From Hermatobates lingyangjiaoensis (lineage: Eukaryota; Arthropoda; Insecta; Hemiptera; Hermatobatidae): a stretch of 64,000 nt of DNA. Below, in pieces: positions 1,061 through 64,000 of this stretch (its first letter is position 1; every line of letters begins with the position of its first letter). The DNA lies in NCBI GenBank assembly GCA_026182355.1, contig JAPFBL010000118.1, forward strand, positions 1 to 64,000, written 5' to 3'. The position numbers and the translations under genes are program-made. Under the pieces are notes generated by a model. It made no database searches. It was not told the origin of the DNA and saw only the letters and a list, made by a program, of their open reading frames with translations.

Positions 1061-1130
1061 CGATTGAAAATGGATAACGTCCGAAAGCGCTCCAACGACT
1101 CCAAGATCATCGTACGAGGTATGACGGTTT
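1061..1130 (+). repeat. Family H module (hammerhead-like, ends in GTACGAGGTATGACGG)
   Basis: This about 70-bp module recurs at 43131, 46403, 51293 (minus), 52013 and 52205. Here the core at 1064-1092 reads UUGAAAA, U, GGAU-AAC-GUCC, GAAAGCGCUC. The stem II arms differ from other copies but still pair (GGAC/GUCU elsewhere). The core has decayed (GAAAA for GANGA). Confidence 0.55.
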
Positions 1131-1144
1131 GCCGTATTAATAAT

Positions 1145-1300
1145 CTAAATAATATAATTCTGTTTATCTATGACAAGCGGTTTTCATCAGAGCTTGTTAC
1201 GGTTGAAAGATCTTAGTCTTTTTTTCTCATTTCTTATTGTGTTTTCAACGTTGATAGTTATTTCACGTGTTTATTCTGAAATCTTGTTTTATATAGACAT
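1145..1300 (+). repeat. Family B element, collapsed inverted pair
   Basis: The left part (TGACAAGCGGTTTTCATCAG) is the minus-orientation half of a family B hammerhead. The right part from 1190 (CTTGTTACGGTTGAAAGATC) is the plus half followed by the usual 3' flank with TTTCACGTGTTTAT. The centre has been deleted, joining the two arms inside the motif. Confidence 0.6.
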
Positions 1301-1818
1301 ATAAAACTAATACAGTTTATCAACAAAGGTACGAAGTAAATTACTTCACAAGGATTAGGTTTAGATACAAAACAATTAACAACCGACGTTTCACCGAAAA
1401 TTGTTCGTCATGATCAATTTTTATAGATTCAAGTACTTCAACCATTATTAACATTCTGTATCATATTATTCGAGTAAATGCCAAGACATCTTTCTTTTTT
1501 CAAATATATAATAGATGAAGAAAGTAAATATTATTATATATTTAATATTAGAGTCTTTTTTCCTCTTTTCAAAGCAATTTAAAATAAATTTTGAACTAAT
1601 TTTCATTCTTTATATGTAATTGAATATAATTAGTCTATATTTTTTTTATAGTCGTATTTATTGCTAAAATAATTTAATTTATTTTACTTAAAGTTTTATG
1701 ATGGAATAATGGATAGAAAAAAAAATGAAATATGAAGGATTTTTGTAGTTTGATAGAATTATGATAATATACTGCTAACAAAAATGAATGAAAGATAGTT
1801 AAATTAAATGATGAATGT
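1300..1818. other. AT-rich stretch, no gene seen
   Basis: Low-GC sequence with homopolymer T runs. Nothing recognisable before the minisatellite begins at 1819. Confidence 0.5.
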
Positions 1819-2994
1819 AAGTTTATGTATTTGTTATTGGTTGTGGAAGACTAAAGAGTAATGAATGAATGAATACATGGGATGAGGAGAAGTGGGCGTG
1901 CAACAGTACCAACGACAAATAAGTTTATGTATTTGTTATTGGTTGTGGAAGACTAAAGAGTAATGAATGAATGAATACATGGGATGAGGAGAAGTGGGCG
2001 TGCAACAGTACCAACGACAAATAAGTTTATGTATTTGTTATTGGTTGTGGAAGAGTAAAGAGTAATGAATGAATGAAGACATGGGATGAGGAGAAGTGGG
2101 CGTGCAACAGTACCAACGACAAATAAGTTTATGTATTTGTTATTGGTTGTGGAAGAGTAAAGAGTAATGAATGAATGAAGACATGGGATGAGGAGAAGTG
2201 GGCGTGCAACAGTACCAACGACAAATAAGTTTATATATTTGTTATTGGTTGTGGAAGACTAAAGAGTAATGAATGAATGAATACATGGGATGAGGAGAAG
2301 TGGGCGTGCAACAGTACCAACGACAAATAAGTTTATGTATTTGTTATTGGTTGTGGAAGAGTAAAGAGTAATGAATGAATGAAGACATGGGATGAGGAGA
2401 AGTGGGCGTGCAACAGTACCAACGACAAATAAGTTTATGTATTTGTTATTGGTTGTGGAAGAGTAAAGAGTAATGAATGAATGAAGACATGGGATGAGGA
2501 GAAGTGGGCGTGCAACAGTACCAACGACAATAAGTTTATGTATTTGTTATTGGTTGTGGAAGACTAAAGAGTAATGAATGAATGAAGACATGGGATGAGG
2601 AGAAGTGGGCGTGCAACAGTACCAACGACAAATAAGTTTATGTATTTGTTATTGGTTGTGGAAGAGTAAAGAGTAATGAATGAATGAAGACATGGGATGA
2701 GGAGAAGTGGGCGTGCAACAGTACCAACGACAAATAAGTTTATGTATTTGTTATTGGTTGTGGAAGACTAAAGAGTAATGAATGAATGAAGACATGGGAT
2801 GAGGAGAAGTGGGCGTGCAACAGTACCAACGACAAATAAGTTTATGTATTTGTTATTGGTTGTGGAAGAGTAAAGAGTAATGAATGAATGAAGACATGGG
2901 ATGAGGAGAAGTGGGCGTGCAACAGTACCAACGACAAATAAGTTTATATATTTGTTATTGGTTGTGGAAGACTAAAGAGTAATGAATGAATGAA
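1819..2994 (+). repeat. 102-bp minisatellite abutting the PDZ exon donor
   Basis: About 11.5 head-to-tail copies of a 102-bp unit starting AAGTTTATGTATTTG. Copies differ at a few sites: GACTAAAG or GAGTAAAG, GAATACAT or GAAGACAT, TTATGTA or TTATATA, and one copy near 2530 lacks a base. The last partial unit runs directly into the intron's first bases beside the PDZ exon. Read on the gene's sense (minus) strand, each unit contains GGTACTGT, the same bases as the exon's real donor, followed by CATCCC and CTTCATTCATTC as in the real intron start. The array therefore appears to be an expansion of the first about 100 bases of this intron. Confidence 0.93.
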
Positions 2995-3014
2995 GGTCTT
3001 CGGGATGACAGTAC

Positions 3015-3168
3015 CTGTCAGCAGGGCTGTTGGGCATGACGAATGTCACTTGGAGAGGACTGTGCGAGCCGTCCTGTCGACGACCTCCGCGCAGGTTGAT
3101 CCCCAGGCCGCAGGATTCGTCTCGTTCTAGGCACACGCCTACTACTCTGTTCACGATCACGCCTTCGT
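3015..3168 (-). CDS. Internal exon encoding the N-terminal half of a PDZ domain
   Basis: A 154-nt exon with a pyrimidine-rich acceptor (CCTTTTCAG before 3168) and donor CTGACAG|GTACTG (exon ends at 3015). It contributes two bases to a split Asp codon, 50 complete codons, then two bases, so it enters at phase 1 and leaves at phase 2. The peptide contains VVGVCLERDESCGLGINLRG, a PDZ beta-A strand followed by the carboxylate-binding loop (GLGI) and beta-B, then SPLQVTFVMPNSPADR, the beta-C strand and the N-S-P-A segment before alpha-A. The rest of the domain must lie in the next exon beyond the left edge. PDZ domains bind C-terminal peptides of membrane proteins. The P-x-S/G-PADR ending resembles GRIP-type PDZ domains, but the family member cannot be named. 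GC content is far above the surroundings. Confidence 0.85.
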
Positions 3169-3239
3169 CTGAAAAGGTAATATCTAAAATAAAAAAAAAA
3201 CTCGCTACCAATATCTATTATTTATACATTTATTTAAAA

Positions 3240-3395
3240 AAAAAAATAAATTCAAAACGAAGGAAACACACAGAAAGACACAGACATATGGTAACTACAT
3301 CGATATTTCGACCATCGTCGTCATCAGGAGGTGTGAAGAGCGAAGAGTCCCGCAGGAAGGCAGGGTGGTGACTCTTTTTATATATAAAAAGAAAT
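3240..3395 (-). mobile_element. Family C element with hammerhead-like motif
   Basis: Contains the minus-strand motif at 3302-3327, with flanks shared with 3962-4170 (AACGAAGGAAACACACAG and CCCGCAGGAAGGCAGG). It sits inside an open frame, but that frame follows the repeat and is not a gene. Confidence 0.6.
3302..3327 (-). ncRNA. Hammerhead-like motif, family C
   Basis: Minus strand: CUGAUGA, spacer C, stem II GAC/GUC with loop GAUG, then GAA-AUAU-C. The AUAU segment is self-complementary and C is an allowed base at the cleavage position. Confidence 0.55.
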
Positions 3396-3695
3396 AACAA
3401 TGAACAAACCACAATAAGAAATTGGGAAAACAAGACTAAGATCTTTCAACCGTAACAAGCGGTCTTCGTCAGAGTCAAATATCAATGATTCCAAGCCACT
3501 ATCCGTTTCCATTCAAGCGATTGCAATGCTCCTTCAGCGTCTGTTTTACAATGACGGTTACTAAGTCGCAAGGGGTAAGTGTTAAGTTGCGTTTTTGACT
3601 CTAACGAAGACCGCTTGTTATGGTTGAAAGATCTTAGTCTTGTTTTCCCATTTCATATTGTGGTTTGATCATTGACATTTATATATATTCTAACA
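3396..3695 (+). mobile_element. Family B foldback element
   Basis: The left arm carries a minus-strand hammerhead-like motif (3438-3472) and the right arm a plus-strand one (3601-3635, CUAACGA instead of CUGACGA). They are separated by about 130 bases of unrelated sequence. The right arm ends in the family's standard TTTCCCATTTCATATTGTGG and a TA-rich run. Confidence 0.65.
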
Positions 3696-3961: not shown

Positions 3962-4190
3962 TTTTTTAAATAAAATAAATTCAAAACGAAGGAAACACAC
4001 AGAAAGACACAGACATAACTCACATCGATATTTCGACCATTGTCGTCATCAGAAGGTGTGAAGAGCGAAGAGCGAAGAGTCCCGCAGGAAGGCAGGGCGG
4101 TGACGGTCGAAATATCGATGTGAGTTATGTCTGTGTCTTTCTGTGTGTTTCCTTCGTTTTGAATTTATTTTATATATATATATATATATA
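3962..4190 (-). mobile_element. Family C foldback element
   Basis: Arms at about 3965-4030 and 4107-4172 are nearly perfect reverse complements (AAATTCAAAACGAAGGAAAC on the left). The left arm holds an intact minus-strand motif at 4027-4052 (CUGAUGA, C, GAC/GUC, GAAAUAUC). The right arm keeps only the part from GACGGUCGAAAUAUCG onward. A (TA)n run follows at 4170-4190. Confidence 0.7.
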
Positions 4191-5251: not shown

Positions 5252-5263
5252 GTGATGTAGCTA

Positions 5264-8320: not shown

Positions 8321-8466
8321 TCTATCATACAGTTGATAAATTATTGAATTTGTTTTATATATATATATATAAGAATGTCTTCCTTATATCGACCACTTAT
8401 ATTTAACACTATTGTCCTTTTTCATCGAGGTTTGGTCTAGCTTCAATAATACAACACCTTTAAGCC

Positions 8467-8498
8467 GACGTTTCATCTATATTTGTAGACATCTTCAG
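8467..8498 (-). ncRNA. Hammerhead-like motif, family D (left arm)
   Basis: CUGAAGA, spacer U, stem II GUCUA/UAGAU, GAA-ACGU-C. Compared with the other arm, two stem positions differ but pairing is kept. Confidence 0.55.
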
Positions 8499-8690
8499 GG
8501 CTACATCAATATAGAATTTAATTACAATAACATAAAACATAGTTAGATTACATTATTTAATTAATATACATAATTACCATGTATGTATATTATGTAATTT
8601 TGTATTATTAGGTAATTATTTATATTAATTAAATAATGTAATATAATGATGTTTCATCTTATTGTAATTAAATTCTGTTTTGATGTAGCC

Positions 8691-8722
8691 CTGAAGATGT
8701 CTACAAATATAGGCGAAACGTC
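8691..8722 (+). ncRNA. Hammerhead-like motif, family D (right arm)
   Basis: CUGAAGA, spacer U, stem II GUCUA/UAGGC, GAA-ACGU-C. The flanks AGCC before CUGAAGA and GGCU after the predicted cut can form stem I. Confidence 0.62.
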
Positions 8723-9164
8723 GGCTTAAAGGTGTTGTATTATTGAAGCTAGACCAAACCTCGATGAAAAATAGTGTTTTTTTTAAATATTATATATATA
8801 TATATAATGAAACTCATTTTGTTTTGCTGTTGCATGTATTCATGTTGCATGTTATGCTCCCTCTAACCTTGACACTTTGCTGTAAAGTGATATCTCCCTG
8901 ATACAAATTAGTTAATTATTCTTGCAGGACCTGCTCTGCGGTTGTGGAACAGGAAGCTCAGGAGCCTGCCAGGTTAGCGGCAGCTGATACAAGACCGGGA
9001 ATGGTTGGTCATCGTGGATGAAAACCCACCTGTCAAAAACATCTTAGTCACAGGTAATTAGACACTAATTACAATATTATAATTATAATTAATACTTCTA
9101 GAGTTATTATTATTATCTGTTTTATGTTATTATTGATATAATTATTATTCACACAGTCTTTCTT

Positions 9165-11512: not shown

Positions 11513-11534
11513 TTATACATTGTAAGGTAAAAAA

Positions 11535-11700
11535 AATTAATGAAAGAGTCTCTACATATAGTAATTTAATAATATAAATAACGCGTTTCGAACACTAGTA
11601 TTCTTCTTCAGGCATTAACTAAAAAATTCAATGCCATCAGAGAGTTATCTAAATCACAACTATAAAATAACTAACTAAATAAGCATTAAATAAAGTAAAT
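11535..11700 (-). mobile_element. Family A element, single arm
   Basis: Contains GTCTCTACATATAGTAATTT then the minus-strand motif at 11580-11611, followed by GCATTAACTAAAAAATTCAA as in the 39.7 and 57.4 kb copies. Confidence 0.7.
11580..11611 (-). ncRNA. Hammerhead-like motif, family A
   Basis: CUGAAGA, spacer A, stem II GAAUAC/GUGUUC (one wobble), GAA-ACGCGU-U. Confidence 0.6.
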
Positions 11701-13960: not shown

Positions 13961-14689
13961 TCACACTCAGTACAGTTCACGATAGGCATTGAAGTAGCTG
14001 TAGGAAAGAGATTTAGTCTCTAAAAACCTTCGCTTAACATGATTGTGGCTGGTAGACGATACAGATTGTGGAGGTACCACCCGGAGAGGTCGAAAGATTG
14101 ACTTTTTAAAAAACAGTATAAATAAAACATAAAAACAATTACGACCATAAAAATTTATTTTGGTATAAAATTTTAGATTTTTTTGTTAGGTTTCTGTTAT
14201 TTTATTATTTTCTTTTTTACCCCCTTAAAATGAATTCTCCGCACGTGCTCCCCCCCCCCCCCCCTTTTGAGACGCTACTGGCTAGGCTCATGTAATAGAT
14301 TCGGTTAGTAAGCTTAAGAATCTGGCTTAAAGTACCCACTTCAGAGACATTTACCCCTTCTTGTAAAGAGTTTCTTTACAAGATCATATTTATACCGATT
14401 CAGATATATTGAATCTGTATAAAAGAAGAGCAGATCTTTCAACACGTAATATTTAAGTGCTCTATTTAGATAATCTAAGACAACAACTGATAACAAATAT
14501 CAAACTGCAAGGTAGAATGTGGCCGGATAAGAATTAAATAATCACTAAGTATACGAAACACATCTTTAGATTTATAAATAACATACAAATTAATGAATTA
14601 TAATTAGCCTATGTAAATTATATTGTATTTATATATTTCATTATATATATATATATATATATAATAAAACAAGATTTGGCATAAAAACG

Positions 14690-14895
14690 TGAAATAACAA
14701 TCAATGATCAAACTACAATAAGAAATGGGAAAAAATACTACGATCTTTCAACCGTAAAAAACGGCCTTCGTCAGAGTCAAAACCCCAACTCTGACGAAGA
14801 ACGCTTGTTACAGTTGAAAGATCTTAGTCCTTTTTTTCTAATTTCATATTGTGGTTTGATCATATATATATATATATTATATATATATATATATA
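14690..14895 (+). mobile_element. Family B foldback element between (TA)n runs
   Basis: Left arm motif on minus (14741-14774), right arm motif on plus (14791-14825), with 16 bases between. (TA)n lies at 14641-14663 and 14861-14895. Both motifs carry substitutions in stem II. Confidence 0.75.
14791..14825 (+). ncRNA. Hammerhead-like motif, family B
   Basis: CUGACGA, spacer A, stem II GAACG/CAGUU (weakened), GAA-AGAUCU-U. Confidence 0.45.
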
Positions 14896-20194: not shown

Positions 20195-20608
20195 TTAAAT
20201 GTCAAATAAATAAAAAAAGTATAGTGTGTTTAGTGTCTAGGATTCAAAGGTAAAAGGTACTCTAGCCTAATACAGCAAGGTCTATGTCAAATTAGTAGAC
20301 AAGCCATACGGGGTCTTTTACTAGCCTAGCCGTTCATACCAGAAAGATCGAAACAATGTTTTGAAACAGAACTTTGGTTTTAAAACATGCAAGTTTCAGT
20401 AAAATGGTGCGATTTTACTGATCAGTGCTATACAAAAAGGAAACTTTGTGTAAAATCATTACCACTGAAAAATGTGATTTGTTGTTGTTGTTGTTGTAAT
20501 ATGACAATTTTCCTACTACTAGTATTTTGACTAACGTGTCTTGTCAGTTAGATGTGTGCAACGACCTAAGCAACAACTACACATTTCTATAAAAACATAT
20601 TGCTTCAA

Positions 20609-20858
20609 ATCATTAGTACTGCAATCCGTAATTGTGTGGTATTTACTCATTCTGAAGTAAAATGGATAAACCAACAAAGGTCTCCACACAAATGAAGTTT
20701 TATTCAACGCGTTTCGAACACTTTGTGTTCATCATCAGGAAGACACCAAGGATGTGGTACTGACGGGTTGGTGTCTTCCTCATGATGAACACTCGAAACG
20801 CGTTGAAAAAACTTTATTTGTGTGGAGACTTTTGTTGGTTTATCCATTTTACCTCAGA
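20609..20858 (+). mobile_element. Family A foldback insertion with empty site
   Basis: The element runs from ATCATTAGTACTGCAATCCG to TATCCATTTTACCTCAGA. It is flanked by atattgcttcaa (20597-20608) and atattccttcaa (20859-20870), a 12-bp duplication with one difference. The paired arm at about 21805-21825 has this site once and uninterrupted. Internal arms each carry a hammerhead-like motif (minus 20706-20738; plus 20779-20804 with a damaged CUGAUGA). Confidence 0.88.
20706..20738 (-). ncRNA. Hammerhead-like motif, family A
   Basis: CUGAUGA, spacer U, stem II GAACAC/GUGUUC with loop AAA, GAA-ACGCGU-U. Confidence 0.65.
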
Positions 20859-21719
20859 ATATTCCTTCAAGTAATCGAATAAGATAAAATGAAATATTTA
20901 TATCCTTCTCTAGATATTTATAAACATTTACAGACTCAATTTATAGACTTATAATATTTATAGACTCAAGAGACCTCAAAACGTATATATCTGTAAAATG
21001 TAAAATCTATTTTTTTTTCTATGATTACTGAAATAGATTAGAAGGAAGTGCATTATTGAAAAATTTTAAAAAAGAAACAAAAATATTGATAATTTATAAT
21101 TATTATTAGAGAGTTTTAGATAATTTGTTTTGCTCGTTGATAATATAATGGTCTCATAAATTTTATTTAAGTTTTGTATACAAGTTATTAAGTTAAAGTA
21201 AGTTGACTGGTTTACCAGTAAAGGAAAACTCGACTAAAGCTTGTTTTAAATAAAGTGATTATAGAAAAGGGTAGGTTGGTTGTAAAACGAGATCCAGTGT
21301 CTGAGAGAGCCGACTAGTCTCTTAACTTTGGAAGAGCAGGGTTTTTGAATTTTAACTTTATTTTAATTTACATGTTACAAAGCTCTCATACACAGGGCTA
21401 CCATCCCCTTGGGAGTTTTACCAAGATCTTGGGATTTCTATCCCGAACTTGAGATCTTAGGATATGCTTCAGTCATTTGACGAAATCTTTGGATTTTTGA
21501 ATGGTAATTTTTTTTTTCACTTAATTATTGTACTAACATTAATTGTCTGTACTAATTGTTCTTTTTGTCTAAAGAATAGGTTAATTTAATTAATAAATAT
21601 ACAAGAAACCTAATTGCTTTATCTTCCTAACTCGTCTTATACTCGTATTAAATATCTTCACTTTGCATTTAGTCAATGAGACACTTGTGTTTCATACACA
21701 ATCATCAATATCTCGACGT

Positions 21720-22180: not shown

Positions 22181-22185
22181 ATTTA

Positions 22186-23919: not shown

Positions 23920-24705
23920 ATGGTCCCAACTCGCGATCAGAAATGCAATCCGTCCACACTCTCTTAAACCTGTCAAACTCCTAGTTTCAGTTAAAATACC
24001 AAAAATATTTTCACATAAATCTAGTCAAAAATATCATTATTAAGATCCTCCATCATTCTTTTAAATCTAAGAAAATACCAGCCAAAGTATGAACCTACAA
24101 AACAATTAAACTGTTTTTTTTTTTGAGTTTTCGTTATTTTATAAAAAATAGCGTTTGTAATTTATGTTGAAAATGGCAACATTTCATCTGCCAAGTTTCT
24201 TTCAATAATTTTAGATTGAATCTTGTTCCCGATTCACTCTTCGGAATTTCATTCAGTCTAGACATTTCTTTTCCAAGCAGTTGATTAATTATCATTGTTC
24301 TCTCTACTGATTCACATTTCAAAGGACTGAGTAGATGTTATACCCTCACATGGGACTTTATTCGAATAATATAATAAAGATCCCAACATTATCAATGATT
24401 GAAGTAAATAAAAAGATCGAAATAATGAATAGTTTTCAAACACTGTAAACATATGCTAATAAAAATTTGAATATTGATAGTAAAACTATATTTTAAAAAT
24501 CTGGATTGGCCTACACGCCACTGTAATATAAGTAAACATATCAGACTTCTTGGGTACATAATACATAATGACCCATTTAGGCATAATATAAATATCTAAA
24601 TCGGAGATGTTTATTAGTCTTTCATTCCTGTATTCCTATTTCATTCCTATATAGTCTGTATTCCTGGAGGTAGTACAGATAGTGACTGATCCACTTATCA
24701 ATATA
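23920..24705. other. AT-rich stretch, no gene
   Basis: A 62-codon minus frame at 24134 has no support. Confidence 0.4.
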
Positions 24706-24707
24706 TC

Positions 24708-24815
24708 AATGATCAAACTACAATATGAAATGGGAAAACAAAACTAAGATCTTTCAACCGTAACAAACGGTCTTCGTCAGAGTCAAAAACCCAACTTTCA
24801 CGTGTTTATGTGAGA
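24708..24815 (-). mobile_element. Family B element, single arm
   Basis: GATCAAACTACAATATGAAA to GTCAAAAACCCAACT, with an intact minus-strand motif at 24746-24780 (CUGACGA, A, GACCG/CGGUU, GAA-AGAUCU-U). The opposite arm is missing. TTTCACGTGTTTATGTGA follows directly. Confidence 0.7.
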
Positions 24816-24819
24816 TCTT

Positions 24820-28262: not shown

Positions 28263-28264
28263 TA

Positions 28265-31714: not shown

Positions 31715-31800
31715 ATATCAATGATCAAACCACAATAAGAAATGGGAAAACAAGACTAAGATCTTTCAACCGTAACAAGCGGTCTTCGTCAGAGTCAAAA
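31715..31800 (-). mobile_element. Family B, single arm after (TA)n
   Basis: A (TA)n run at 31675-31718 leads into TCAATGATCAAACCACAATA and an intact minus motif at 31758-31792. Confidence 0.7.
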
Positions 31801-31854
31801 ACCATCTATTATATCAAGTGTTATTTTGATTATTATTCATATATATATATATAT

Positions 31855-31985
31855 AAAAAGATTTCACATAAACACGTGAAACAACAATCAATGATCAAAC
31901 CACAATAAGAAATGGGAAAACAAGACTAAGATCTTTCAACCGTAACAAGCGGTCTCGTCAGAGTCAAAAACCATCTATTATATCA
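31855..31985 (-). mobile_element. Family B, single arm (one-base deletion in stem II)
   Basis: A copy of the unit, with GGTCTCGTCAG instead of GGTCTTCGTCAG, removing the spacer base. The following CATCTATTATATCAAGTGTT also follows the 31720 copy, so the block was duplicated in tandem. Confidence 0.72.
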
Positions 31986-32096
31986 AGTGTTATTTTGATT
32001 ATTATTCATATATATATATATATAAAAAGATTTCACATAAACACGTGAAACAACAATCAATGATCAAACCACAATAAGAAATGGGAAAACAAGACT

Positions 32097-32131
32097 AAGA
32101 TCTTTCAACCGTAACAAGCGGTCTTCGTCAG
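32097..32131 (-). ncRNA. Hammerhead-like motif, family B
   Basis: CUGACGA, spacer A, stem II GACCG/CGGUU, loop CUUGUUA, GAA-AGAUCU-U. Stem I: GACU before, AGUC after the predicted cut. Confidence 0.65.
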
Positions 32132-32169
32132 AGTCAAAAACCCAACTGGGAGCAGTTGGGTTTTTGACT

Positions 32170-32204
32170 CTGACGAAGACCGCTTGTTACGGTTGAAAGA
32201 TCTT
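32170..32204 (+). ncRNA. Hammerhead-like motif, family B (type copy)
   Basis: Same as its partner arm. The 3' segment AGAUCU is a perfect 6-nt palindrome followed by U at the predicted cleavage position. GACU/AGUC form stem I. Confidence 0.65.
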
Positions 32205-32372
32205 AGTCTTGTTTTCCCATTTCTTATTGTGGTTTGATCATTGATTGTTGTTTCACGTGTTTATGTGAAATCTTTTTATATATATATATATATGAATAAT
32301 AATCAAAATAACACTTGATATAATAGATGGATTCATTTACCACAATGAAAACAATTTTTGAAACAATGCTCT

Positions 32373-32398
32373 AAGGCCTTTCGTTAACACATCGTCAG
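32373..32398 (-). ncRNA. Hammerhead-like motif, family F
   Basis: CUGACGA, spacer U, minimal stem II GUGUUAAC (GU/AC ends), GAA-AGGCCU-U. Flanks GCUCU and AGAGC form a perfect 5-bp stem I. Confidence 0.6.
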
Positions 32399-32449
32399 AG
32401 AGCAAGTGAACTAAAAAACAAATTTTTTAGTTTTTAGTTCACTTGGTCT

Positions 32450-32475
32450 CTGACGATGTGTTAACGAAAGGCCTT
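32450..32475 (+). ncRNA. Hammerhead-like motif, family F
   Basis: Mirror of the left-arm motif. Stem I is shortened to UCU/AGA by a flank substitution (GGTCT instead of GCTCT). Confidence 0.58.
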
Positions 32476-32517
32476 AGAGCATTGTTTCAAAAATTGTTTT
32501 CATTGTGGTAAATTAAT

Positions 32518-32556
<39 letters not shown>

Positions 32557-34329: not shown

Positions 34330-34512
34330 TAAGTCTCCACCAAAAAACTTTATTACAAGAAACTAAATAACGCGTTTCGAACACTTGATGTTCTTCTTCA
34401 GGTTACATCTAGAAAAAAAACTCATTACATCTTGTAATAAACTTTTTTGTGTAGAGACTTAATAATTTTCTTTGAATGAGTAAATACCACACTAAAACAG
34501 ATTTCACAGTTC
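34330..34512 (-). mobile_element. Family A foldback element
   Basis: TTAAGTCTCCACCAAAAAAC on the left mirrors TTTTTTGTGTAGAGACTTAA on the right, and the outer end TGAGTAAATACCACAC follows. One intact minus motif lies in the left arm. Confidence 0.78.
34369..34401 (-). ncRNA. Hammerhead-like motif, family A
   Basis: CUGAAGA, spacer A, stem II GAACAU/GUGUUC (a wobble replaces a pair), GAA-ACGCGU-U. Confidence 0.62.
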
Positions 34513-38904: not shown

Positions 38905-39640
38905 TGAATTATTGCAAATAGTGATAAACTATAAAAAGTGAATATTCATGATGGACTACTTGCAAGAAAGTAATCCAGTTATTGTTGGGCTCTGGTTATT
39001 TGAAAAGGTTTTTGAAGGTCAATCCTAATTGTGGGAACAGGAACATTAGATGGACTGACGACCCTAACTCCCACTGCAGTGCATGCATCGCCGAATAAGG
39101 ACGGCGTCTTCTCCTTCCCTACCTCTCTTAGAGGCCCCTGCTAAACATCGTCATGTCTCTCTGATTATATCCAAATGAAGAAACAGTATTCGAGACACAA
39201 CCTTCCAATAGTCAAAACATTGTTACAAAGTATTGCTTTTATTTAAAAACATTTTCAAATTTCAATATAAACCACTTTATGACAAATTTAAATCATGTTT
39301 AACTTTGACATAAACCAGTTAGTGATGCAGATATTCTTACTGTACAGTTTTTTTTTATTTATAGCAATTGTTGTTACCGTGATATTTTAAATTTCATCTA
39401 GCGCAAGATTTTTGAAAATCATCTATTTATTTGTTTCTAGGATAAATGGATAGCAAAACAGAATTACAATAACTACAATTAACAGTCTTCAAAAATAGAA
39501 CATTTCAGTAGAATCAACATTATTCAAATAACATAAATGATAATATTTTAAATTTCAAAAAATTAGTTTGTTAAACGTTGCTAATCTGTAAGAATGATTC
39601 ATAAGGCTATTGAACGTAGTATTATTTCTAAAGTAGTGCA
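38905..39640. other. AT-rich stretch, nothing identified
   Basis: Segment 39440-39600 is re-used, inverted and diverged, near 41190-41300. Confidence 0.35.
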
Positions 39641-39724
39641 ATCACTTATTATGTGGTATTTACTCATTGTACGGTAAAAAGTTAATGAAATGGTCTCCAC
39701 ATATAAAAATTTAATGGTATAAAT

Positions 39725-39757
39725 AACGCGTTTCGAACATGTAGTGTTCTTCCTCAG
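39725..39757 (-). ncRNA. Hammerhead-like motif, family A
   Basis: CUGAGGA, spacer A, stem II GAACA/UGUUC, GAA-ACGCGU-U. Confidence 0.6.
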
Positions 39758-39877
39758 GCATTAACTAAAAAATACAATGACACCAGAGAGTTATCTATAG
39801 TATAGAATGGACGTGGATAGGGTATGGGGTACATCTATAGATAACTCTGTGGTGTCATTGTATTTTTTAGTTAATGC

Positions 39878-39910
39878 CTGAGGAAGAACACTACGTGTTC
39901 GAAACGCGTT
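39878..39910 (+). ncRNA. Hammerhead-like motif, family A (type copy)
   Basis: CUGAGGA, spacer A, stem II GAACAC/GUGUUC, loop UAC, GAA-ACGCGU-U. Upstream UAGU and downstream ACUA can close stem I beyond an internal loop. Confidence 0.65.
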
Positions 39911-40444
39911 GTTTATACTATTAAATTTTTATATGTGGAGACCATTTCATTAACTTTTTACCCTACAATGAGTGGTATTATTTGTTATTATGTTTAATTG
40001 AACAAAGTATAAAATCTTCAATAATAAATTATAATAAGACACATTGTTTTGTTAATAACTACCAATAAATAAATTATAACATGAAATCATTTCTTTATTA
40101 TCTTGGGAATTCAAGATTATTATTTATTAATTAAGATTTAAGATTATTTATTATACCAGTTCAAAGAAATAAACTGGTCCTTAGTATTATCTCTTATTTA
40201 ATTATTTAATTCTTAGTCAATTTTCTACAAAAAATCACTACTTTCTGTTTCTTTAAAGTAAATTCTTAGCTACCGAATTGAACTTCTTGACTGTGTCTAC
40301 GTTACAACAACTTTTAAGTCAAATCTCCAATGACCTATTACCCATAATGTTAAATTCCCAAGAGAACAATTAATATGATTTCATGTTATAATTTATCTAT
40401 TGGTAATTATTAACTAAACAATCACAGTATTATTATAATTTATT

Positions 40445-46476: not shown

Positions 46477-46508
46477 CATATTAAAAATATAAAGAACAAT
46501 TATTATTT

Positions 46509-46742
46509 AAATCATTAGTTGTGCAATCCGTAATTGTGTGGTATTTACTCATTATGAGATAAAATGGATAAACAAACAAAAGTCTCCCACACAAATGAAA
46601 TTTGATTCAACAAACTACAAAGCGTTTCGAATACTTTGTGTTCTGATGATGAACACAAAGTGTTCGAAACGTGTTGTTGTTTGTTGAATCAAACTTCGTT
46701 TGTGTGAAGACTTTTGTTTTTTTATCCATTTTACCTCAGAAT
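46509..46742 (+). mobile_element. Family A element with target duplication
   Basis: Begins AAATCATTAGTTGTGCAATC and ends TTACCTCAGA, the same ends as at 20609. The flanks caattattattt and taattattattt (46497-46508 and 46742-46753) are a 12-bp repeat with one difference. It contains the plus motif 46643-46675 and a minus half-motif. Confidence 0.8.
46643..46675 (+). ncRNA. Hammerhead-like motif, family A
   Basis: CUGAUGA, spacer U, GAACAC/GUGUUC, GAA-ACGUGU-U (palindrome weakened by one change). Confidence 0.58.
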
Positions 46743-46754
46743 AATTATTATTTG

Positions 46755-48741: not shown

Positions 48742-48770
48742 ATATAATATATATATATATATATATATAG
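48661..48770. repeat. (TA)n microsatellites with short inverted flanks
   Basis: Three TA runs. ATAAAGTATTTATATA on the left is mirrored by TATAAATACTTTAT on the right of the first. Confidence 0.9.
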
Positions 48771-48771
48771 T

Positions 48772-49015
48772 CAAGCAACAATATGAAATGGGAAAACAAG
48801 ACTAAGATATTTCAACCGTAATAAGACGTCTTCGTCAGAGTCCAAACCCCACCTGAGGGTATTTACTTAACCCAAAACGTCAGTTGGGTTTTTGACTCTG
48901 ACGAAGACCGCTTGTTACGGTTGAAAGGTCTTAGTTTTTTTTTCCCATTCCATATTGTGGTTCTATCACTGATTGTTATTTCAAATTGTTTATGTAAAAT
49001 TTTGTACATATATAT
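48772..49015 (+). mobile_element. Family B foldback element
   Basis: Left arm minus motif 48804-48838 with changes; right arm plus motif 48898-48932 intact except GAAAGGTCTT for GAAAGATCTT. About 55 unrelated bases sit between the arms. Confidence 0.75.
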
Positions 49016-49018
49016 ATA

Positions 49019-49190
49019 TATGACGAGGCCATCGAAATATAGTAGTGAGTTTCCGTTTCATTTCTGTGTGTTTTTTTGTGTATATAGTTTATATATATAC
49101 AGTTCACACTGGAAAGATAAAAACAGATAAAAACACACAAAAAAAAGACTCACAACGATATTTCAACATTCTTCGTCATCGGAATATATA
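49019..49190. mobile_element. Family C inverted pair cut at the hammerhead core
   Basis: The right half of a plus motif (GACGAGGCCATCGAAATATA) begins immediately after (TA)n at 49020, so the CUGA box is missing. A degenerate minus motif is at 49157-49182 (CCGATGACGAAGAATGTTGA). Confidence 0.62.
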
Positions 49191-49191
49191 T

Positions 49192-49372
49192 ATATATATA
49201 AAGATTTCACATAAACACGTGAAACAACAATCAATGATCACACCACAGTAAGAAATGGGAAAACAAGACTAAGATCTTGTTTTTGACTCTGACGAAGACC
49301 ACTTGTTACGGTTGAAAGATCTTAGTCTTGTTTTCCCATTTCTTACTGTGGTTTGATCATTGATTATATATA
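49192..49372 (+). mobile_element. Family B foldback, left motif deleted
   Basis: Left arm runs AAAGATTTCACATAAACACG to AAGACTAAGATCTTG, then jumps to TTTTTGACTCTGACGAAGAC. The right arm motif 49289-49323 is intact. Bounded by (TA)n. Confidence 0.78.
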
Positions 49373-49379
49373 TATATGT

Positions 49380-49610
49380 ATATATATGATGAAACCACAA
49401 TAAGAAAATGGGAAAACAAGACTAAGATCTTTCAACCGTAACAAGCGGTCTTCGTCAGAGTCAAAAACCCAACAGTTGGGTTTTTAACTCTGACGAAGAC
49501 CACTTGTTACGGTTGAAAGATCTTAGTCTTGTTTTCCCATTTTCTTATTGTGGTTTGATCATTGATTGTTATTTCACGTGTTTATGTGAAATCTTTTTAT
49601 ATATATATAT
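49380..49610 (+). mobile_element. Family B foldback element
   Basis: Arms meet at CCCAACAGTTGGG. Minus motif 49424-49458, plus motif 49490-49524, with (TA)n on both sides. Confidence 0.86.
49490..49524 (+). ncRNA. Hammerhead-like motif, family B
   Basis: CUGACGA, A, stem II GACCA/CGGUU (one pair lost), GAA-AGAUCU-U. AACU before and AGUC after the cut leave a shortened stem I. Confidence 0.55.
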
Positions 49611-49614
49611 ATAA

Positions 49615-50574: not shown

Positions 50575-50995
50575 CTGCTGGAATCAAAAGCAATGTTTGT
50601 TTATATCTATAACATGGGATCTGCTGAAATCGAAAGCAATGTTTGTTTGTATCTATAACATGGGATCTGCTGGAATAGAACACAATGTTTGTTTGTATCT
50701 ATAACATGGTATCTGCTGGAACCGAAAGCAATGTTTGTTTGTATCTATAACATGGGATCTGCTGAAATAGAAAGCAATGTTTGTTTGTATCTATAACATG
50801 GGATCTGCTGAAATAGAAAGCAATGTTTGTTTCCATCTATAACATGGGATTTGCTGGAATCAAAACTAATGTTTGTTTCTATCTATAACATGGGGTCTGC
50901 TGGAATCGAAAGCAATGTTTGTTTGTATCTATAACAGGGGATCTGCTGAAATCGAAAGCAATTTTTGTTTGTATCTATAACATGGGATTTTTCCC
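50575..50995 (+). repeat. 46-bp minisatellite, about 9 copies
   Basis: Unit ATAACATGGGATCTGCTGGA then ATCGAAAGCAATGTTTGTTT and GTATCT. Substitutions are scattered and length is nearly constant. Confidence 0.94.
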
Positions 50996-51237: not shown

Positions 51238-51370
51238 AAAACCGTCTGAGGTTAGTATGACTTATAATTATTCGTAGAAATAGGGAAAACCGTCATACCT
51301 CGTACGATGGTCTTGGAGTCGTTGGAGCGCTTTCAGACGTAGTCCATCTTCAATCGCAACTAACATGCAA
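51238..51370 (-). repeat. Family H element, longer copy
   Basis: Inverted relative to 52010-52140 and sharing flanks GTTAGTTGCGATTGAAGATG on one side and AGTCATACTAACCTCAG on the other, so the mobile unit is about 120 bp or more. Confidence 0.75.
51325..51353 (-). ncRNA. Hammerhead-like motif, family H
   Basis: UUGAAGA (first C changed to U), spacer U, stem II GGAC/GUCU, loop UAC, GAA-AGCGCU-C. AGUUG and CGACU can form a distal stem I. Confidence 0.45.
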
Positions 51371-54394: not shown

Positions 54395-54540
54395 AGTGCT
54401 TCTTCAAGACCACCGGCCAGTCGTTGTCTACCTGCGGAGCGACTCGTTTCTATCTTCCTGATGAAGAAGCCGTCGAAATATAGTAGTAAATTTCTGTTTC
54501 ATTTCTGTGTGTTCTTTTTGTCAATATAATATATATATAT
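54395..54540 (+). mobile_element. Family C element, single arm
   Basis: Plus motif 54458-54482 (CUGAUGA, A, GA/UC stem only, GAA-AUAU-A) with the flank TTTCTGTTTCATTTCTGTGT shared with 49040 and, inverted, 63930. Confidence 0.62.
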
Positions 54541-54775
54541 ATATATAAAGATTTCACATAAACACATGAAATAACAATCAATGATCAAACCACAATATTA
54601 AACGGGAAAACAAAACTAAGATCTTTCAACCGTAACAAGCGGTCTTCGTCAGAGTCAAAAACCCAACTGAATACCCAGTTGGGTTTTTGACTCTGACGAA
54701 GACCGCTTGTTACGGTTGAAAGATCTTGGTCTTGTTTTCCCATTTCATATTGTGGTTTGATCATTGATATATATA
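54541..54775 (+). mobile_element. Family B foldback element
   Basis: Arms meet at CCCAACTGAATACCCAGTTG. Motifs at 54619-54652 (minus) and 54693-54727 (plus), bounded by (TA)n. Confidence 0.86.
54693..54727 (+). ncRNA. Hammerhead-like motif, family B
   Basis: CUGACGA, A, GACCG/CGGUU, GAA-AGAUCU-U. After the cut the flank is GGUC, so stem I is imperfect. Confidence 0.6.
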
Positions 54776-55374: not shown

Positions 55375-55980
55375 CATATATATTCATATAATCCATATAT
55401 TAATAACAAAAAAAAAAAGGAAATCATAATCAGTTTGTAATTGGACTTTTGAAAGAGAATTGTACGAGTTCTAGTCTGAACCATAGTAAGAAATTCACAA
55501 ATAGACAAAAATTGCGTGTCAATTGCGTGTCAGAATCAATACTCTGTTATTAGAGAGGAACAAAGTAGCACCTTATTTTTTCATTTAAATAATGAGAATC
55601 ACGATATAAATTGGACAGAAGCCAAAATGATCACATCTGAAAGATTGATGTTGTTAAGAAATATTAGCCAGCCTTCCTTAATTAATATTAATAGATCGAA
55701 TACTATTAACATTAGTAATGGCTTTTTCAATTTATACTCAGTATTAACAAGAGTGCTACGCTTGGACTGCCGGGGTGGACCTGCAAGCATATAGTTTTTA
55801 TTATTCCTTCCTGATCTCCTTTGTTTATACCCTGACTTACACAGTCATTTATTCCATTCTCTTTTGTCCTTTATGCGTTTTAAAATAACTCTTTTCACTT
55901 CCTCTCTTCTCAATAGTACACCAAATGCCCTATTTGGAAGACTTCTTTCAGTGACATAATGTATATATTTATAATATATA
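55375..55980. other. Unassigned sequence
   Basis: The 92-codon plus and 63-codon minus frames overlap antiparallel. Neither has supporting signals. Confidence 0.35.
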
Positions 55981-56132: not shown

Positions 56133-56139
56133 ATATATA

Positions 56140-56332
56140 TATATATATATAACTTTAAATTACACAAAGCACGACAAAGAAAAAAGAATAAAAAGAACAC
56201 TTACAGAATTCAATATTTCGAGCTGTTGTTCGTCATCAGGAGTAGACTAGAAGAGAGGACGAAGTTAGAGAGATCTTCCCACGTCGAAGAACGGAGTGCG
56301 AAACTCCGCGTATATATATATATATATAACTG
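56140..56332 (-). mobile_element. Family C-like element between (TA)n runs
   Basis: Minus motif 56212-56239 has CUGAUGA, C, GA/UC outer pairs and GAAAUAUU. (TA)n at 56133-56150 and 56310-56328. Confidence 0.58.
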
Positions 56333-56334
56333 TT

Positions 56335-56530
56335 CAAAATTGAAGATAGGTAGCACACAAAGTAAAGAAACACACTTACAAACTCAAATTTTCGGGCAAT
56401 CCGTCTTCAGGAGAAAAGAGAATGGGAGACCAAGCACGTTGTAGACGCAACGACTAGTAACGCAATGGGTTACTACACATTTGTAAATGTGTTCTTTACT
56501 TTGTGTGCTACCTATCTTCAATTTTGAACT
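56335..56530 (-). mobile_element. Family G foldback element
   Basis: GTTCAAAATTGAAGATAGGT...AGCACACAAAGTAAAGAA is mirrored by TTCTTTACTTTGTGTGCTAC...TTCAATTTTGAAC. One minus hammerhead-like motif lies in the centre. Confidence 0.75.
56386..56410 (-). ncRNA. Hammerhead-like motif, family G
   Basis: CUGAAGA, spacer C, two-pair stem II GG/CC, GAA-AAUU-U. CUC and GAG flanks give stem I. Confidence 0.5.
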
Positions 56531-56569
56531 TTTATTGTGTCAGTTTGTATCGTCTTTCCATTTATCTAG

Positions 56570-56760
56570 TATATATATAAAAATTTTAACAAATAGGAAA
56601 GAATACAGGAAGTAACTGCAGAACTCACTTCAATATTTCGACATCCGTCGTCATCAGGAAGAAGTGCGATGTACTCGCGTAGAGAAGCAAAATGTTACTG
56701 GCCTCCATAGTAACTCGTGGATACTAAAGGATAAAATAGGTGATTCCAATATCAGGAAAG
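56570..56760 (-). mobile_element. Family C element
   Basis: Preceded by a short TA run, with a well-preserved minus motif and right flank AGGAAGAAGTGCGATGTACT. Confidence 0.6.
56632..56657 (-). ncRNA. Hammerhead-like motif, family C
   Basis: CUGAUGA, spacer C, GAC/GUC with loop GGAU, GAA-AUAU-U. The last base differs from the 3302 copy (C) and 63958 copy (A); all are allowed cleavage-site bases. Confidence 0.6.
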
Positions 56761-56764
56761 AAAT

Positions 56765-57130
56765 AATATATTGTAGCTCTACTTTACTCTATTTTGTAAA
56801 TTTGCTATAAATCATATAAAATAGTTGTTGAATATTTTTTCTATTTTTTTTTATAAAAGAATAAGATTGTAATTAAGTACGAAGCCTCTTGGTTGCTAAC
56901 GATCTGAGTTAAATTTCTAACCATAAGAACTTCCTGTTGAAGCCCTTGGACTATTGCCAGTATATTAAGAAGAAATGTATCGGAGCAGAAGCAATGCAGA
57001 AAGTAAAAATAACCCAACAACAATTTTAATATAAGAATATCATAATGGCATTTTAGATTTAAATCCCATAATAAAAGAGATAAAGGAGGTTGGTTTTTTT
57101 TTTGAGAAAAAAGTATAATTCTAACGTAGT
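56765..57130. other. Unassigned sequence
   Basis: The 97-codon minus frame is unsupported. Confidence 0.35.
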
Positions 57131-57216
57131 GCATTAAGTTATTTTGTGGTATTTACTCATTGTAGGGTAAAAAGCTAATGGAATGGTCTCTACATATAAA
57201 AATTTAATCGTAAAAC

Positions 57217-57249
57217 AACGCGTTTCGAACTCATAGTGTTCTTCCTCAG
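57217..57249 (-). ncRNA. Hammerhead-like motif, family A
   Basis: CUGAGGA, A, GAAC/GUUC, GAA-ACGCGU-U. Confidence 0.58.
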
Positions 57250-57457
57250 GCTGATGAAAGATTTACACCCCATACCCCCACCCACGTCCATCCTATTCCC
57301 AGTCAGTCGTATCACAGACACTCACCCTTAGGTTCATACTCTCTTCCTTATTTTATTTTATTTTTATTTTGTATAAAATAAATGTAAAATGTTTATTTAT
57401 TTTGTAAAAATAAAATAAATAAATAAATACAATGACATTGTATTTTTTAGTTAATGC

Positions 57458-57490
57458 CTGAGGAAGAACACTACGTGTTCGAAATGCGTT
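57458..57490 (+). ncRNA. Hammerhead-like motif, family A
   Basis: CUGAGGA, A, GAACAC/GUGUUC, GAA-AUGCGU-U (one substitution breaks the palindrome). Confidence 0.55.
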
Positions 57491-57559
57491 GTTTATACGA
57501 TTAAATTTTTATATGTGGAGACCATTTCATTAGTTTTTTTTACTTTACAATGAAAAAAA

Positions 57560-58754: not shown

Positions 58755-59540
58755 GTCATAACAGTTCATTTAGTTTGTGTTAATAGTCCAAAATCAATTA
58801 TTTCTAAAGATGTTAATCGTCCAGAACCAATAATTTCTAAATAAGGGCAGTTGTATCTAGCAGGCAGCATAACAGTTCATTTAGTTATGTTAATAGTCCA
58901 GAATCAATTATTTCTAAAGATGTTAATCGTCCGGAATCAATGATTTCTAAAGAGGGACCGGTGTATCTAACAGGCAGCATAACAGTTGATTTAGTTTGTG
59001 TTAATAGTCCAGAATCAATTATTTCTAAAGATGTTAATCGTCTAGAATCAATGATTTCTAAAGAGGGACAGGTGTATCTAACAGGCAGCATAACAGTTCA
59101 TTTGTTTGTGTTAATAGTCCAGAATAAATTATTTCTAAAGATGCTAATCGTCCATAATCAATGATTTCTAAAGTTGTTAGTAGTCCAGAATCAATTTTTT
59201 CTAAAAATGTTAATTGTCCAAAATCATTGATTTCTAAAGAGAGACAGGTGTGTCTAACAGTCAGCATAACAGTTCATTTAGTTTGGGTTAATAGTCCAGA
59301 ATCAATTATTTCTAAGGAAGCTAATCGGCCAGAATCAATTTTTTCTAAAAATGTTAATTGTCCAAAATCATTGATTTCTAAAGAGGGACAGGTGTGTTTA
59401 ACAGGCAGCATAACAGGTCATTTAGTTGTGTTAATAGTCCAGAATCAATTATTTCTAAGGATGCTAATCGGCCAGAATCAATGATTTCTAAATATGTTAA
59501 TAGTCAAGAATCAATGATTTCTAAAGATGTATAGATGTGG
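58755..59540 (+). repeat. Nested minisatellite (about 110-bp units of about 30-bp subunits)
   Basis: Subunit GTTAATAGTCCAGAATCAAT with TATTTCTAAAGAT repeats throughout. Every third or fourth subunit is followed by GGGACAGGTGTATCTAACAG and CATAACAGTTCATTTAG. Long frames on both strands are consequences of the repeat. Confidence 0.95.
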
Positions 59541-62985: not shown

Positions 62986-62989
62986 AGTA

Positions 62990-63600
62990 GGTAGTCACCG
63001 AAAAAGTAAGCAGTAAGCGGGAAAACATGACTCATTTGTTTATTGTCACTTATTTAATTACCAAGTAAGCTATAATATTGATATCAGGAATATGAAGTTA
63101 TGTTTTATTTCATCAAAATCACGAAATCTGAAATCAGAATGATATGATTACAGTTATTTACTGTAACTGAACAACAGTTACAGTAAAGTAAAAGTATGCT
63201 ACGACATATTAAAAGTATAATGCCGTGATTTTTAATTTTAAAATGGATAAAAATTAGCATTATTATTATTAGAAAGAAATATCCGCAGCAGTTAGCATCT
63301 AATTTGAATGGAATTGCCATTTATGACGAGGCTAAGGAAAAGTCGTCAAGGGACAAGGGTGGGGGTAATCACCTCCTGAGGAGATTGAGGGCTTTACCAA
63401 AGTGTTGCCAACTAACATTAACAGCTTGTAATACAATTCATTCATCATTGCAATTTTAAAGCAAAATTGAAACTACCTTTTTAACAGTATATTTTAGAAA
63501 AAAAAATTCATAAAAGGTAAATAAAGAAAACAAATATAATATTCTTACTTATTAACGTGTTTTAACAAGAAATTATTATGCATGTGTTTTCAAAATACCT
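62990..63600. other. Unassigned sequence
   Basis: AACTGAACAACAGTTACAGT-type imperfect palindrome near 63160; otherwise nothing. Confidence 0.35.
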
Positions 63601-63602
63601 TT

Positions 63603-63785
63603 AATCTATATATATATATATATATAAAATACAAAGTTTTTCTGTCTGTCCACTATAGAAATAAAACTGGAGACATTTAGATACAAAGAAACATATGGAT
63701 CTTGTATAAATTTTTTCGCAAGAACTAACTACGGTATTCTGATTTTGATGAGAGTCCTTTCTTGGGATCTTCCGCCCATAATTAG
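63603..63785 (+). repeat. R3 family copy after (TA)n
   Basis: ACTATAGAAATAAAACTGGA, GACATTTAGATACAAAGAAA and CATATGGATCTTGTATAA mirror 35870-35935. Confidence 0.65.
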
Positions 63786-63895
63786 ACAATTATCTCCAAA
63801 CAGCTTCTAATCACGTGAAATAGGGTTTATAACGATTGTAGAGTTCACTTCATTCGTTGAATTCAAAACTCTATACACTTAAATGGACTTTATTT

Positions 63896-64000
63896 ATATA
63901 TATATATAAACTATATTGACACAAAGAACACTCAGAAATGAAACAGAAACTCACTACTATATTTCGATGTCCTCGTCATCAGGACTATAGAAACGAGTCG
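63896..64000 (-). mobile_element. Family C element, cut by the window edge
   Basis: (TA)n, then AACACTCAGAAATGAAACAG and a minus motif. Continues beyond the right edge. Confidence 0.65.
63958..63982 (-). ncRNA. Hammerhead-like motif, family C
   Basis: CUGAUGA, spacer C, short stem II GA/UC, GAA-AUAU-A. Confidence 0.5.

Follow-up and report, generated by a model that had tools for sequence, protein, structure and literature searches.

A stretch of 64,000 nucleotides (nt) from the hemipteran insect Hermatobates lingyangjiaoensis (assembly GCA_026182355.1, contig JAPFBL010000118.1, positions 1-64,000 of the forward strand; referred to below as the window) carries several families of short dispersed repeats, labelled A to G, each built around a compact hammerhead ribozyme motif. 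These families are probably the end pieces (pseudo-long terminal repeats, pLTRs) of several Penelope-like elements (PLEs), each with a minimal type I hammerhead. In kind, such PLE-type minimal dimeric hammerheads are known. The way in which the repeats are constructed, many of them as inverted pairs, offers clues to how PLEs jump.

The strength of this assignment differs between the families. Judged by its linkage to coding sequence, family B is a PLE end. Family F is assigned less firmly by the same kind of linkage, through one weak case. Families A/E, C, D and G would be PLE ends by likeness, through shared architecture only, and this tells against extending the assignment to all families alike.

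Architecture of the Hammerhead Motif

The motif was searched for as CTGANGA, zero to two bases, stem II and GAAA, and 100 dinucleotide shuffles of the window served as the control. The window holds 34 such structured sites against a shuffle mean of 0.51 (maximum 4). CTGANGA itself occurs 60 times, with 21.5 occurrences expected and a shuffle maximum of 37. The core CUGANGA ... GAA is present with stem II adjoining it across one extra unpaired base, and the spacer is exactly one base in 32 of the 34 sites. In full, the order of the parts is CUGANGA, one unpaired base, stem II, GAA, a self-complementary 4- to 6-mer, H17 and the 3′ strand of stem I. An earlier note on this DNA had proposed that seven families (A, B, C, D, F, G and H) share one compact architecture of CUGANGA, one spacer base, stem II and GAAA. 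This stands for six of the seven, more strongly than had been stated, and falls for family H, which is treated separately below. The helix III palindrome and the cleavage point were missing from its description.

Helix III was counted on a list of 36 sites, comprising the 34 structured sites together with 56233 and 61373, as a 4- or 6-mer palindrome directly after GAA, with G-U accepted, followed by H17. It is found in 33/36 sites, the misses being 14768, 55123 and 61373. The palindrome is strictly Watson-Crick in 30/36, one of which (48832) uses another register. An A15.1-U16.1 pair, helix III (in the dimer only), H17 and helix I are found together in 33/36 sites. As a background, a palindrome with H17 follows 11.8% of the 1077 GAAA sites in the window, motif sites included. 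The palindromes and their 3′ continuations are specific to the family: ACGCGU-U in A and E, AGAUCU-U-AGUC in B, AGGCCU-U-AGAGC in F, ACGU-C-GGCU in D, AUAU-H in C and its variants, and AAUU-U-GAG in G. Such a helix is too short to close on itself, and helix III is thus possible only between two copies. Stem I is weak in several A and C copies, with 0-2 contiguous base pairs.

The architecture recurs elsewhere in the genome. A 200 kb stretch of another contig, picked without regard to the motif, contains 19 structured sites, 16 of them with a spacer of one base. The self-complementary helix III with H17 follows in 15 of these 16 sites and in none of the other three. Families A, B, C, E, F and G were all found again in this comparison DNA. 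The window is the denser of the two, with 32 spacer-1 sites per 64 kb against 16 per 200 kb, which agrees in part with the earlier suggestion that so many families in 64 kb are unusual. That suggestion is weakened by the report, in the available text of PMC7229834, of one coral genome in which type I motifs, minimal or canonical, number more than 6000 and fall into 16 families.

A covariance-model search, named in the earlier note as a check, gave no hammerhead match in the window with Rfam 15, even at E<=10. This result is not counted as a contradiction because the motif has no helix III hairpin and carries an extra base before stem II; the Rfam hammerhead models presumably describe extended motifs. 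Matches to Rfam microRNA models were all under their gathering scores, several of them falling on long palindromes, and were rejected. Pattern scans of viral contigs for relatives of the motif found none. Those of genome contigs initially gave none and later 19 matches, which were set aside as chance-like in bacterial DNA; about half were near-identical.

Some family B copies naturally have no spacer base, so that stem II sits directly on the core. These are 31955 (-) in the window and the copies at 459864 and 460024 of G000:C1 (L042:665 and 862), the latter two being PLE-linked.

Pairing, Conservation and Folding

Three sets of sequence are distinguished for family B. Loci L028-L047 (n=20) were picked for containing the B motif, while loci L048-L067 and the window were not so picked and are called unselected.

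Pairing was compared between families by permutation, using one representative per label (ten labels, with C variants kept separate) or six lineages. With ten labels, 26/30 inner pairs of stem II form within the family against 19.5 on permutation (p 2e-4), and 34/40 pairs of stem I against 23.0 (p 5e-5). With the six lineages only, p is 0.0025 for stem II and 0.001 for stem I. Setting stem II with a spacer of 0 or 2 bases leaves merely 14 or 10 of the 30 pairs. The support for paired stems thus comes from the comparison between families and not from change within them. The stem II sequences quoted in the earlier note for A, B, C, D, F and G are present; that of G pairs in one of its two CTGANGA copies in the window and in both (2/2) in the 200 kb. 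Its stem I pairs GACU/AGUC (B) and AGCC/GGCU (D) are also present, and GCUCU/AGAGC (F) is found in one of two copies.

Several results weigh against the hammerhead reading. The compensatory or wobble changes that had been reported within families did not hold up on counting. Family B shows no both-sided stem II change among 12 distinct rows in the window; over 85 copies, 3/425 stem II cells are compensated on both sides and 47 are broken, gaps being scored as broken. In A/E, no both-sided change in stem II was found in the window, and the three both-sided pairs of stem I, with 66.7% paired overall, do not exceed shuffles. The changes in family D are one-sided only. In the unselected B set, with truncated copies included, the first part of the core is no better conserved than the body (22/195 cells changed against 118/1443), though the second part (3/117) and H17 (0/39) are. 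Folds of single copies gave no clear gain over shuffles in 4/4 copies, and the hammerhead dimer was never the predicted minimum-energy fold in any family. The predicted dimer energies are -13.9 (A), -17.6 (B), -16.9 (D), -16.3 (E) and -21.3 kcal/mol (F), and -1.6 (C), +0.8 (G), and -4.4, +8.2 and +10.8 kcal/mol for the C variants. Dimers are therefore plausible as modelled for A, B, D, E and F, and the predictions give weak or unstable ones in the case of C, G and the C variants.

Some of these observations also lend substance to an alternative, namely that conservation of the motif reflects a role as a DNA or RNA signal, such as a binding site for the PLE protein or a promoter element, and that self-cleavage has been lost in most or all families. 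Besides the first part of the core and the poor dimers of C, G and the C variants, the decay of stem II agrees with it, being strongest at CpG positions (13.5% altered against 5.1% at other stem II positions in the unselected set). The hammerhead of a PLE from Anolis is inactive without its protein and dispensable for insertion in vitro, as given in the available text of PMC11167929. Against this alternative, the pairing of stems I, II and III is kept across families of different sequence, which a protein site alone would not demand. The genomic copies are probably mostly dead insertions, the decay of which is no test of selection on the source elements, and the absence of covariation within families is what dead insertions would look like. 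A conserved signal in place of a ribozyme is considered less likely than not, and the families continue to be read as PLE ends with a hammerhead.

Linkage to Penelope-like Elements

Family B is abundant. Its pattern gives 75,994 matches across the genome (910 Mb, 1629 contigs) against 2,289 for the reversed pattern, or about 74,000 net matches. One locus, L039, contains a 320-residue open fragment that includes RYVDD, YRKPT and a GIY-YIG stretch, with GIYKI...YIGQTGKSLKTR and RYVDD standing in one frame. Behind this piece of the PLE open reading frame (ORF) come, in order, 3′ sequence, a B hammerhead, a tail and finally (TA)n. The left half of the locus is a shorter inverted copy of the same end, without the tail. 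Residues 209-256 match the Pfam GIY-YIG model PF01541 at E 2.9e-4.

Eight matches to the PLE C-terminus were found in the window, the loci and the 200 kb taken together. Six of these are close, being located in L039 (three), L042 (two) and L044, and in 6/6 the B motif lies 175-180 nt downstream of the C-terminus. The earlier proposal of minimal type I, Penelope-linked hammerheads is borne out here for B and, through a single weak case, for F: in the unselected locus L063, a diverged remnant of a PLE endonuclease (E 1.4e-4) ends about 100 nt before an F motif. The window itself contains one further remnant, which a motif search for PLE proteins failed to detect and tblastn later found:

55495..55758, + strand: Penelope-like endonuclease remnant; tblastn, 54.5% amino acid identity over 88 residues to the L039 PLE ORF, E 6.7e-23

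This remnant is decayed and sits between family C/G copies, and no recognisable B-type hammerhead lies within 330 nt downstream of it.

A number of points count on the other side. As the loci in question were picked for the B motif, the informative part of the 6/6 linkage is the constant distance only, and no close PLE C-terminus occurs in the unselected DNA of the window and the 200 kb. The PF01541 score of 21.5 bits is slightly under the curated cut-off of 22.6. An NCBIfam group I intron endonuclease model matched nearly the same stretch of L039 at E 2.3e-4, far below its cut-off. No reverse transcriptase (RT) model of Pfam or NCBIfam matched the L039 ORF, and a PDB search with it returned nothing useful. 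The call that the ORF includes an RT rests on the motifs RYVDD and YRKPT, recognised by eye, which we take to be RT motifs of PLEs. For A/E, C, D and G, no link to PLE coding sequence was seen in the window, the loci or the 200 kb.

Structure of the Insertions

Many copies in the window form inverted, diverging pairs. Among 31 adjacent pairs of B arms, 23 are head-to-head, 6 direct and 2 tail-to-tail. A tail is present on exactly one outer end in 19 of the 22 head-to-head B clusters (10 right, 9 left), and in 15/17 when the window is excluded. The rule is broken in the remaining three, two having no tail and one having both, which is a point against its generality. In A/E, exactly one tail was found in 6/6 pairs of the window, matched by eye, two of the six being without an intact motif. 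A pLTR with an adjoining inverted pLTR and an optional tail on one arm is thus seen in both B and A/E. For B, TA repeats lie within 30 nt of 61/86 ends against 26/410 random 30-mers, indicating AT-rich insertion sites.

The 5′ starts of B arms are concentrated. Of 96 copies, 43 start at -18 to -14 from C3, as do 26/45 in unselected DNA; one C at the joint of the consensus was doubled in error, so that -18 could be -17, and copies extending just a few bases past -17 would appear to be cut there. The consensus of the other start run ends at -17 and is unable to reveal this boundary. The discrete start coincides with TCAGTT, which resembles an arthropod-type initiator. A further 16/96 copies extend into the PLE 3′ sequence. 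In total, 93/96 begin upstream of the cleavage point and one starts at it (within +34 to +36). The B insertions bear next to no trace of cleaved RNA.

The short elements have no ORF, and the two arms of a B pair are mostly no more similar to each other than arms from different pairs. Since many B arms share one start point and stop at either the tail or the no-tail site, the short arms look like short insertion products of PLE RNA and not like independently evolving non-autonomous families. The earlier label of "non-autonomous derivatives" is accurate as to the missing ORF, and the discrete ends would fit insertion products better.

Metazoan non-LTR (long terminal repeat) retrozymes, small non-autonomous tandem repeats whose RNA is cleaved by the type I hammerhead it contains and then closed into a circle, offer another explanation. 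The type I permutation, the low GC content and a tandem array of family B with 169-nt units would suit them, this unit lying within the 150-450 bp given for animal repeats in the available text of PMC7229834. Direct neighbours are few (6/31 against 23 head-to-head), this array is the one tandem array of arms in the window, and the minimal hammerheads form no helix III as monomers. The arms do not start at the cleavage site, and B is linked to a PLE ORF. Retrozymes are accordingly held to be an improbable source.

The head-to-head inverted arms and (TA)n flanks would also be expected of palindromic DNA transposons resembling miniature inverted-repeat transposable elements, with long terminal inverted repeats, insertion at TA and an incidental likeness to hammerheads. 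A transposase needs matching ends, and the outer ends differ by one tail in 19/22 B clusters. Single and tandem arms exist, inner ends vary through truncation, some copies run into the PLE ORF and the ribozyme features exceed chance, all of which makes such transposons very improbable. That AT-rich, repeat-rich sequence yields CTGANGA...GAAA by composition can be practically dismissed, for although GAAA and palindromes are frequent in such DNA, as the background count above reflects, the excess over shuffles is large and the same architecture appears in several lineages and again in the 200 kb.

Proposed Mechanism and Its Implications

If the families are PLE ends, the following sequence of events may be envisaged, starting from a motif shortly downstream of a PLE ORF that includes a GIY-YIG endonuclease (B, and one weak F case). 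The PLE RNA would start approximately 16 nt before C3 at the initiator-like TCAGTT. This would place the hammerhead at the extreme 5′ end of the RNA, with a second copy near the 3′ end. The PLE protein would cleave both DNA strands in (TA)n and prime a reverse transcript from each, one of them at the body-end site and the other at the tail site approximately 30 nt further. The two complementary DNAs would then join 5′ to 5′, producing a head-to-head pair with one tail. Reverse transcription beginning in the 5′-terminal copy would give the arm of 90-120 nt observed here, and a start in the 3′ copy would include ORF sequence. The ribozyme would cleave as a dimer, perhaps aided by the PLE protein.

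The simplest account of the arms is therefore that they would be reverse transcripts of the 5′ end of PLE RNA, with both strands primed, mostly once per start site. Self-priming fold-back is disfavoured because it should give identical outer ends on both arms, unlike those observed. Two separate initiations are preferred owing to the tail asymmetry and the unequal truncation of the arms. In the Anolis PLE, no start-site difference between the strands is reported in vitro in the available text of PMC11167929, which speaks against a fixed rule of one site per strand.

A broader proposal treats the minimal hammerheads scattered through animal genomes as relics of twin-primed Penelope insertions. 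One RNA 5′ end, beginning at an initiator and carrying the ribozyme, would have been copied from both cut strands, as a rule once from each of the tail and body-end start sites, and the two complementary DNAs would have been joined head-to-head. It is put forward tentatively, as somewhat more likely to fail than to hold, and the published in vitro system without a start-site difference makes it slightly less probable. If it is true, the one-tail rule would point to priming of the two strands in different registers, or by different subunits of a PLE dimer. The insertion intermediate would be uncleaved RNA, and the conserved ribozyme would act at another step. The data suggest that PLE insertion gave rise to the scattered motifs, with priming on both strands, mostly at different sites, and with an RNA that the ribozyme had generally left uncut. 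The genome constitutes a large natural experiment, in which the start points, end points and orientation of one family are readable in the sample. A count of start points and a one-tail rule among scattered copies were not met in the available portions of the published accounts compared.

Families in the Window

About five or six lineages may be recognised from sequence likeness, namely A/E, B, C (perhaps together with G), D and F. The seven independent families with "unrelated flanks" of the earlier note are reduced accordingly, as the likeness of A to an unlisted sister family E reaches past the motif, and C comprises several related variants. The copies in the window are as follows, with motif positions followed by their strand.

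31717..32333: family B cluster; three direct - arms (motifs 31786, 31955, 32125; 169-nt spacing), head-to-head with + arm 32170; left outer end without tail, right outer end with tail; 31955 without spacer base
3396..3676: family B head-to-head pair, 3466- / 3601+ (CTAACGA); no tail on either arm, an exception
14673..14867: family B, two arms head-to-head; tail on 14768-, none on 14791+
24705..24817: family B; tailless - arm (24774-) attached to a + arm reduced to the tail alone
48754..49023: family B head-to-head pair, 48832- without tail / 48898+ with tail; outer limits approximate
49184..49613: two family B elements side by side; in one, the tail is on the - arm (end at 49230) and absent from 49289+; in the other, it is on 49490+ and absent from 49452-
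54550..54768: family B, two arms head-to-head; tail on 54646-, none on 54693+
39622..39973: family A, two arms head-to-head; tail on 39751-, none on 39878+
57115..57553: family A, two arms head-to-head; tail on 57243-, none on 57458+
11518..11651, - strand: family A single arm, motif 11605
34333..34416, - strand: family A single arm, motif 34395
20605..20861: pair from family E, the sister of A; 20732- carries a tail, the + arm neither motif nor tail
46507..46747: family E pair, - arm with tail, truncated at stem II / 46643+ without tail
8399..8771: family D, 8492- and 8691+ head-to-head; ACGU as stem III and AGCC/GGCU as stem I
32323..32525: family F, 32392- and 32450+ head-to-head; AGGCCU as stem III, and GCUCU/AGAGC as stem I of the - copy
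3967..4176: family C, 4046- paired with a + arm (4107+) that breaks off within stem II
3209..3359, - strand: family C arm, motif 3321
54443..54566, + strand: family C variant, weak hammerhead, motif 54458
63879..64000, - strand: family C variant, weak hammerhead, motif 63976
56555..56666, - strand: family C variant, motif 56651
56134..56264, - strand: family C variant, weak hammerhead, motif 56233
56326..56460, - strand: family G arm, motif 56404, stem III AAUU

Single weak copies, such as 55123 and 61373, may be due to chance. In 6/8 of the C and G copies examined, a splice-donor-like GTRAGT (or GTAAAT) lies 11-15 nt past the G of GAAA, as though an intron started right past the cleavage point. 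It is present at 4046-, 63976-, 56651-, 56233-, 56404- and 54458+, and missing at 3321 and 61373.

The A/E tail block (ATGAGTAAATACCACANAAT) recurs outside intact motifs, at 20605-20705, 28189-28289, 37564-37664, 39622-39722, 46507-46607 and 57115-57215; the aligned copies were chosen by the tail block itself and give no measure of its relative conservation. Two large nested inverted structures, with arms of approximately 120-250 nt, span 60950-62818 and 20204-22190. Tandem arrays occupy 43451-44875 (59 nt), 1818-2995 (102 nt), 50575-50988 (46 nt) and 58757-59529 (110/33 nt units).

Family H

The seventh family of the earlier note, H, has copies near 1069, 46413, 52011 and 52215 (+), 51348 (-) and, diverged, 43125 (+). 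CTGANGA is missing in 6/6 of the copies examined, and G8 or G12 is altered in at least three of the six. One copy serves as the example:

51250..51360, - strand: family H copy, not counted as a hammerhead; motif site 51348, TTGAAGA in place of CTGANGA, exon-like

By eye, the copies at 1069 and 51348 contain an open frame W(T/I)TSESAPTTPR(P/S)SYE up to GAG/GTATGACGG, a splice-donor-like junction that is found in several copies. The copy at 43125 is flanked by an acceptor-like TTGTAG and by GAG/GTAAGA, again as read by eye. A decayed or variant hammerhead could be argued from the four-pair stem II GGAC/GUCU with one spacer base, found at 51348 in a scan allowing one mismatch, and from the palindrome AGCGCU directly after GAA at 1069 and 51348. 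With CTGANGA missing throughout and an exon-like appearance, this reading was not accepted and H was rejected as a seventh hammerhead family. We take it as a dispersed exon-like unit, the copies of which are possibly duplicated exons.

Comparison with Known Systems

Minimal type I hammerheads of PLEs were reportedly described by Lunse, Weinberg and Breaker in 2017 and by Cervera and de la Pena in 2014. The present motifs resemble those in the available text of PMC7761336, where minimal type I hammerheads with helix III absent or formed in the dimer only are dispersed in animal genomes, some of them on PLE pseudo-LTRs. A short helix III that pairs with a second copy has been described for newt and PLE hammerheads (available text of PMC7761336 and PMC6155905), and a palindromic stem III is mentioned in a supplement legend of PMC3088659. 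Known alignments include cases with one or two bases inserted between CUGAnGA and the stems, as far as presented in the accessible part of PMC10085705. The present motifs have one unpaired base before stem II at nearly all sites, which may set them apart from the published minimal PLE hammerheads, and their palindromes differ from family to family.

With metazoan non-LTR retrozymes, as portrayed in the available text of PMC7229834, they share a type I hammerhead in small repeats and, once, a tandem array. They differ in the mostly head-to-head arrangement, the minimal motif and arms that are not cut at the cleavage site.

The Penelope elements of Adineta vaga are also similar. According to the accessible part of PMC3846280, these have direct pLTRs with an adjoining inverted pLTR, palindromic head-to-head junctions, an optional 31-bp tail on one inverted pLTR and an initiator-like motif in the pLTR. 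The inverted pairs, the tail on one arm and the initiator-like motif are all found here. Self-priming on an antisense template was inferred for Adineta vaga, whereas the tail asymmetry and unequal arm truncation would fit two initiations better in the present case. Most B elements here have no ORF, unlike the Adineta vaga elements.

Poseidon of Anolis carolinensis (PAc) is the PLE referred to above. In PAc, the ORF starts at stem II, while no such ORF start was seen for B, the motif copy being found only 3′ of the ORF, and its strands lack the start-site difference proposed here (available text of PMC11167929). The hammerhead cut being dispensable for its insertion in vitro has been mentioned. 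PAc is a GIY-YIG PLE with an AT-rich target, both strands of which are cut and extended, and its reverse transcription begins internally in an AC-rich stem-loop, as the same text describes. The GIY-YIG endonuclease and the AT-rich target are common to PAc and the elements described here, and so would be a tail that lies between two start sites.

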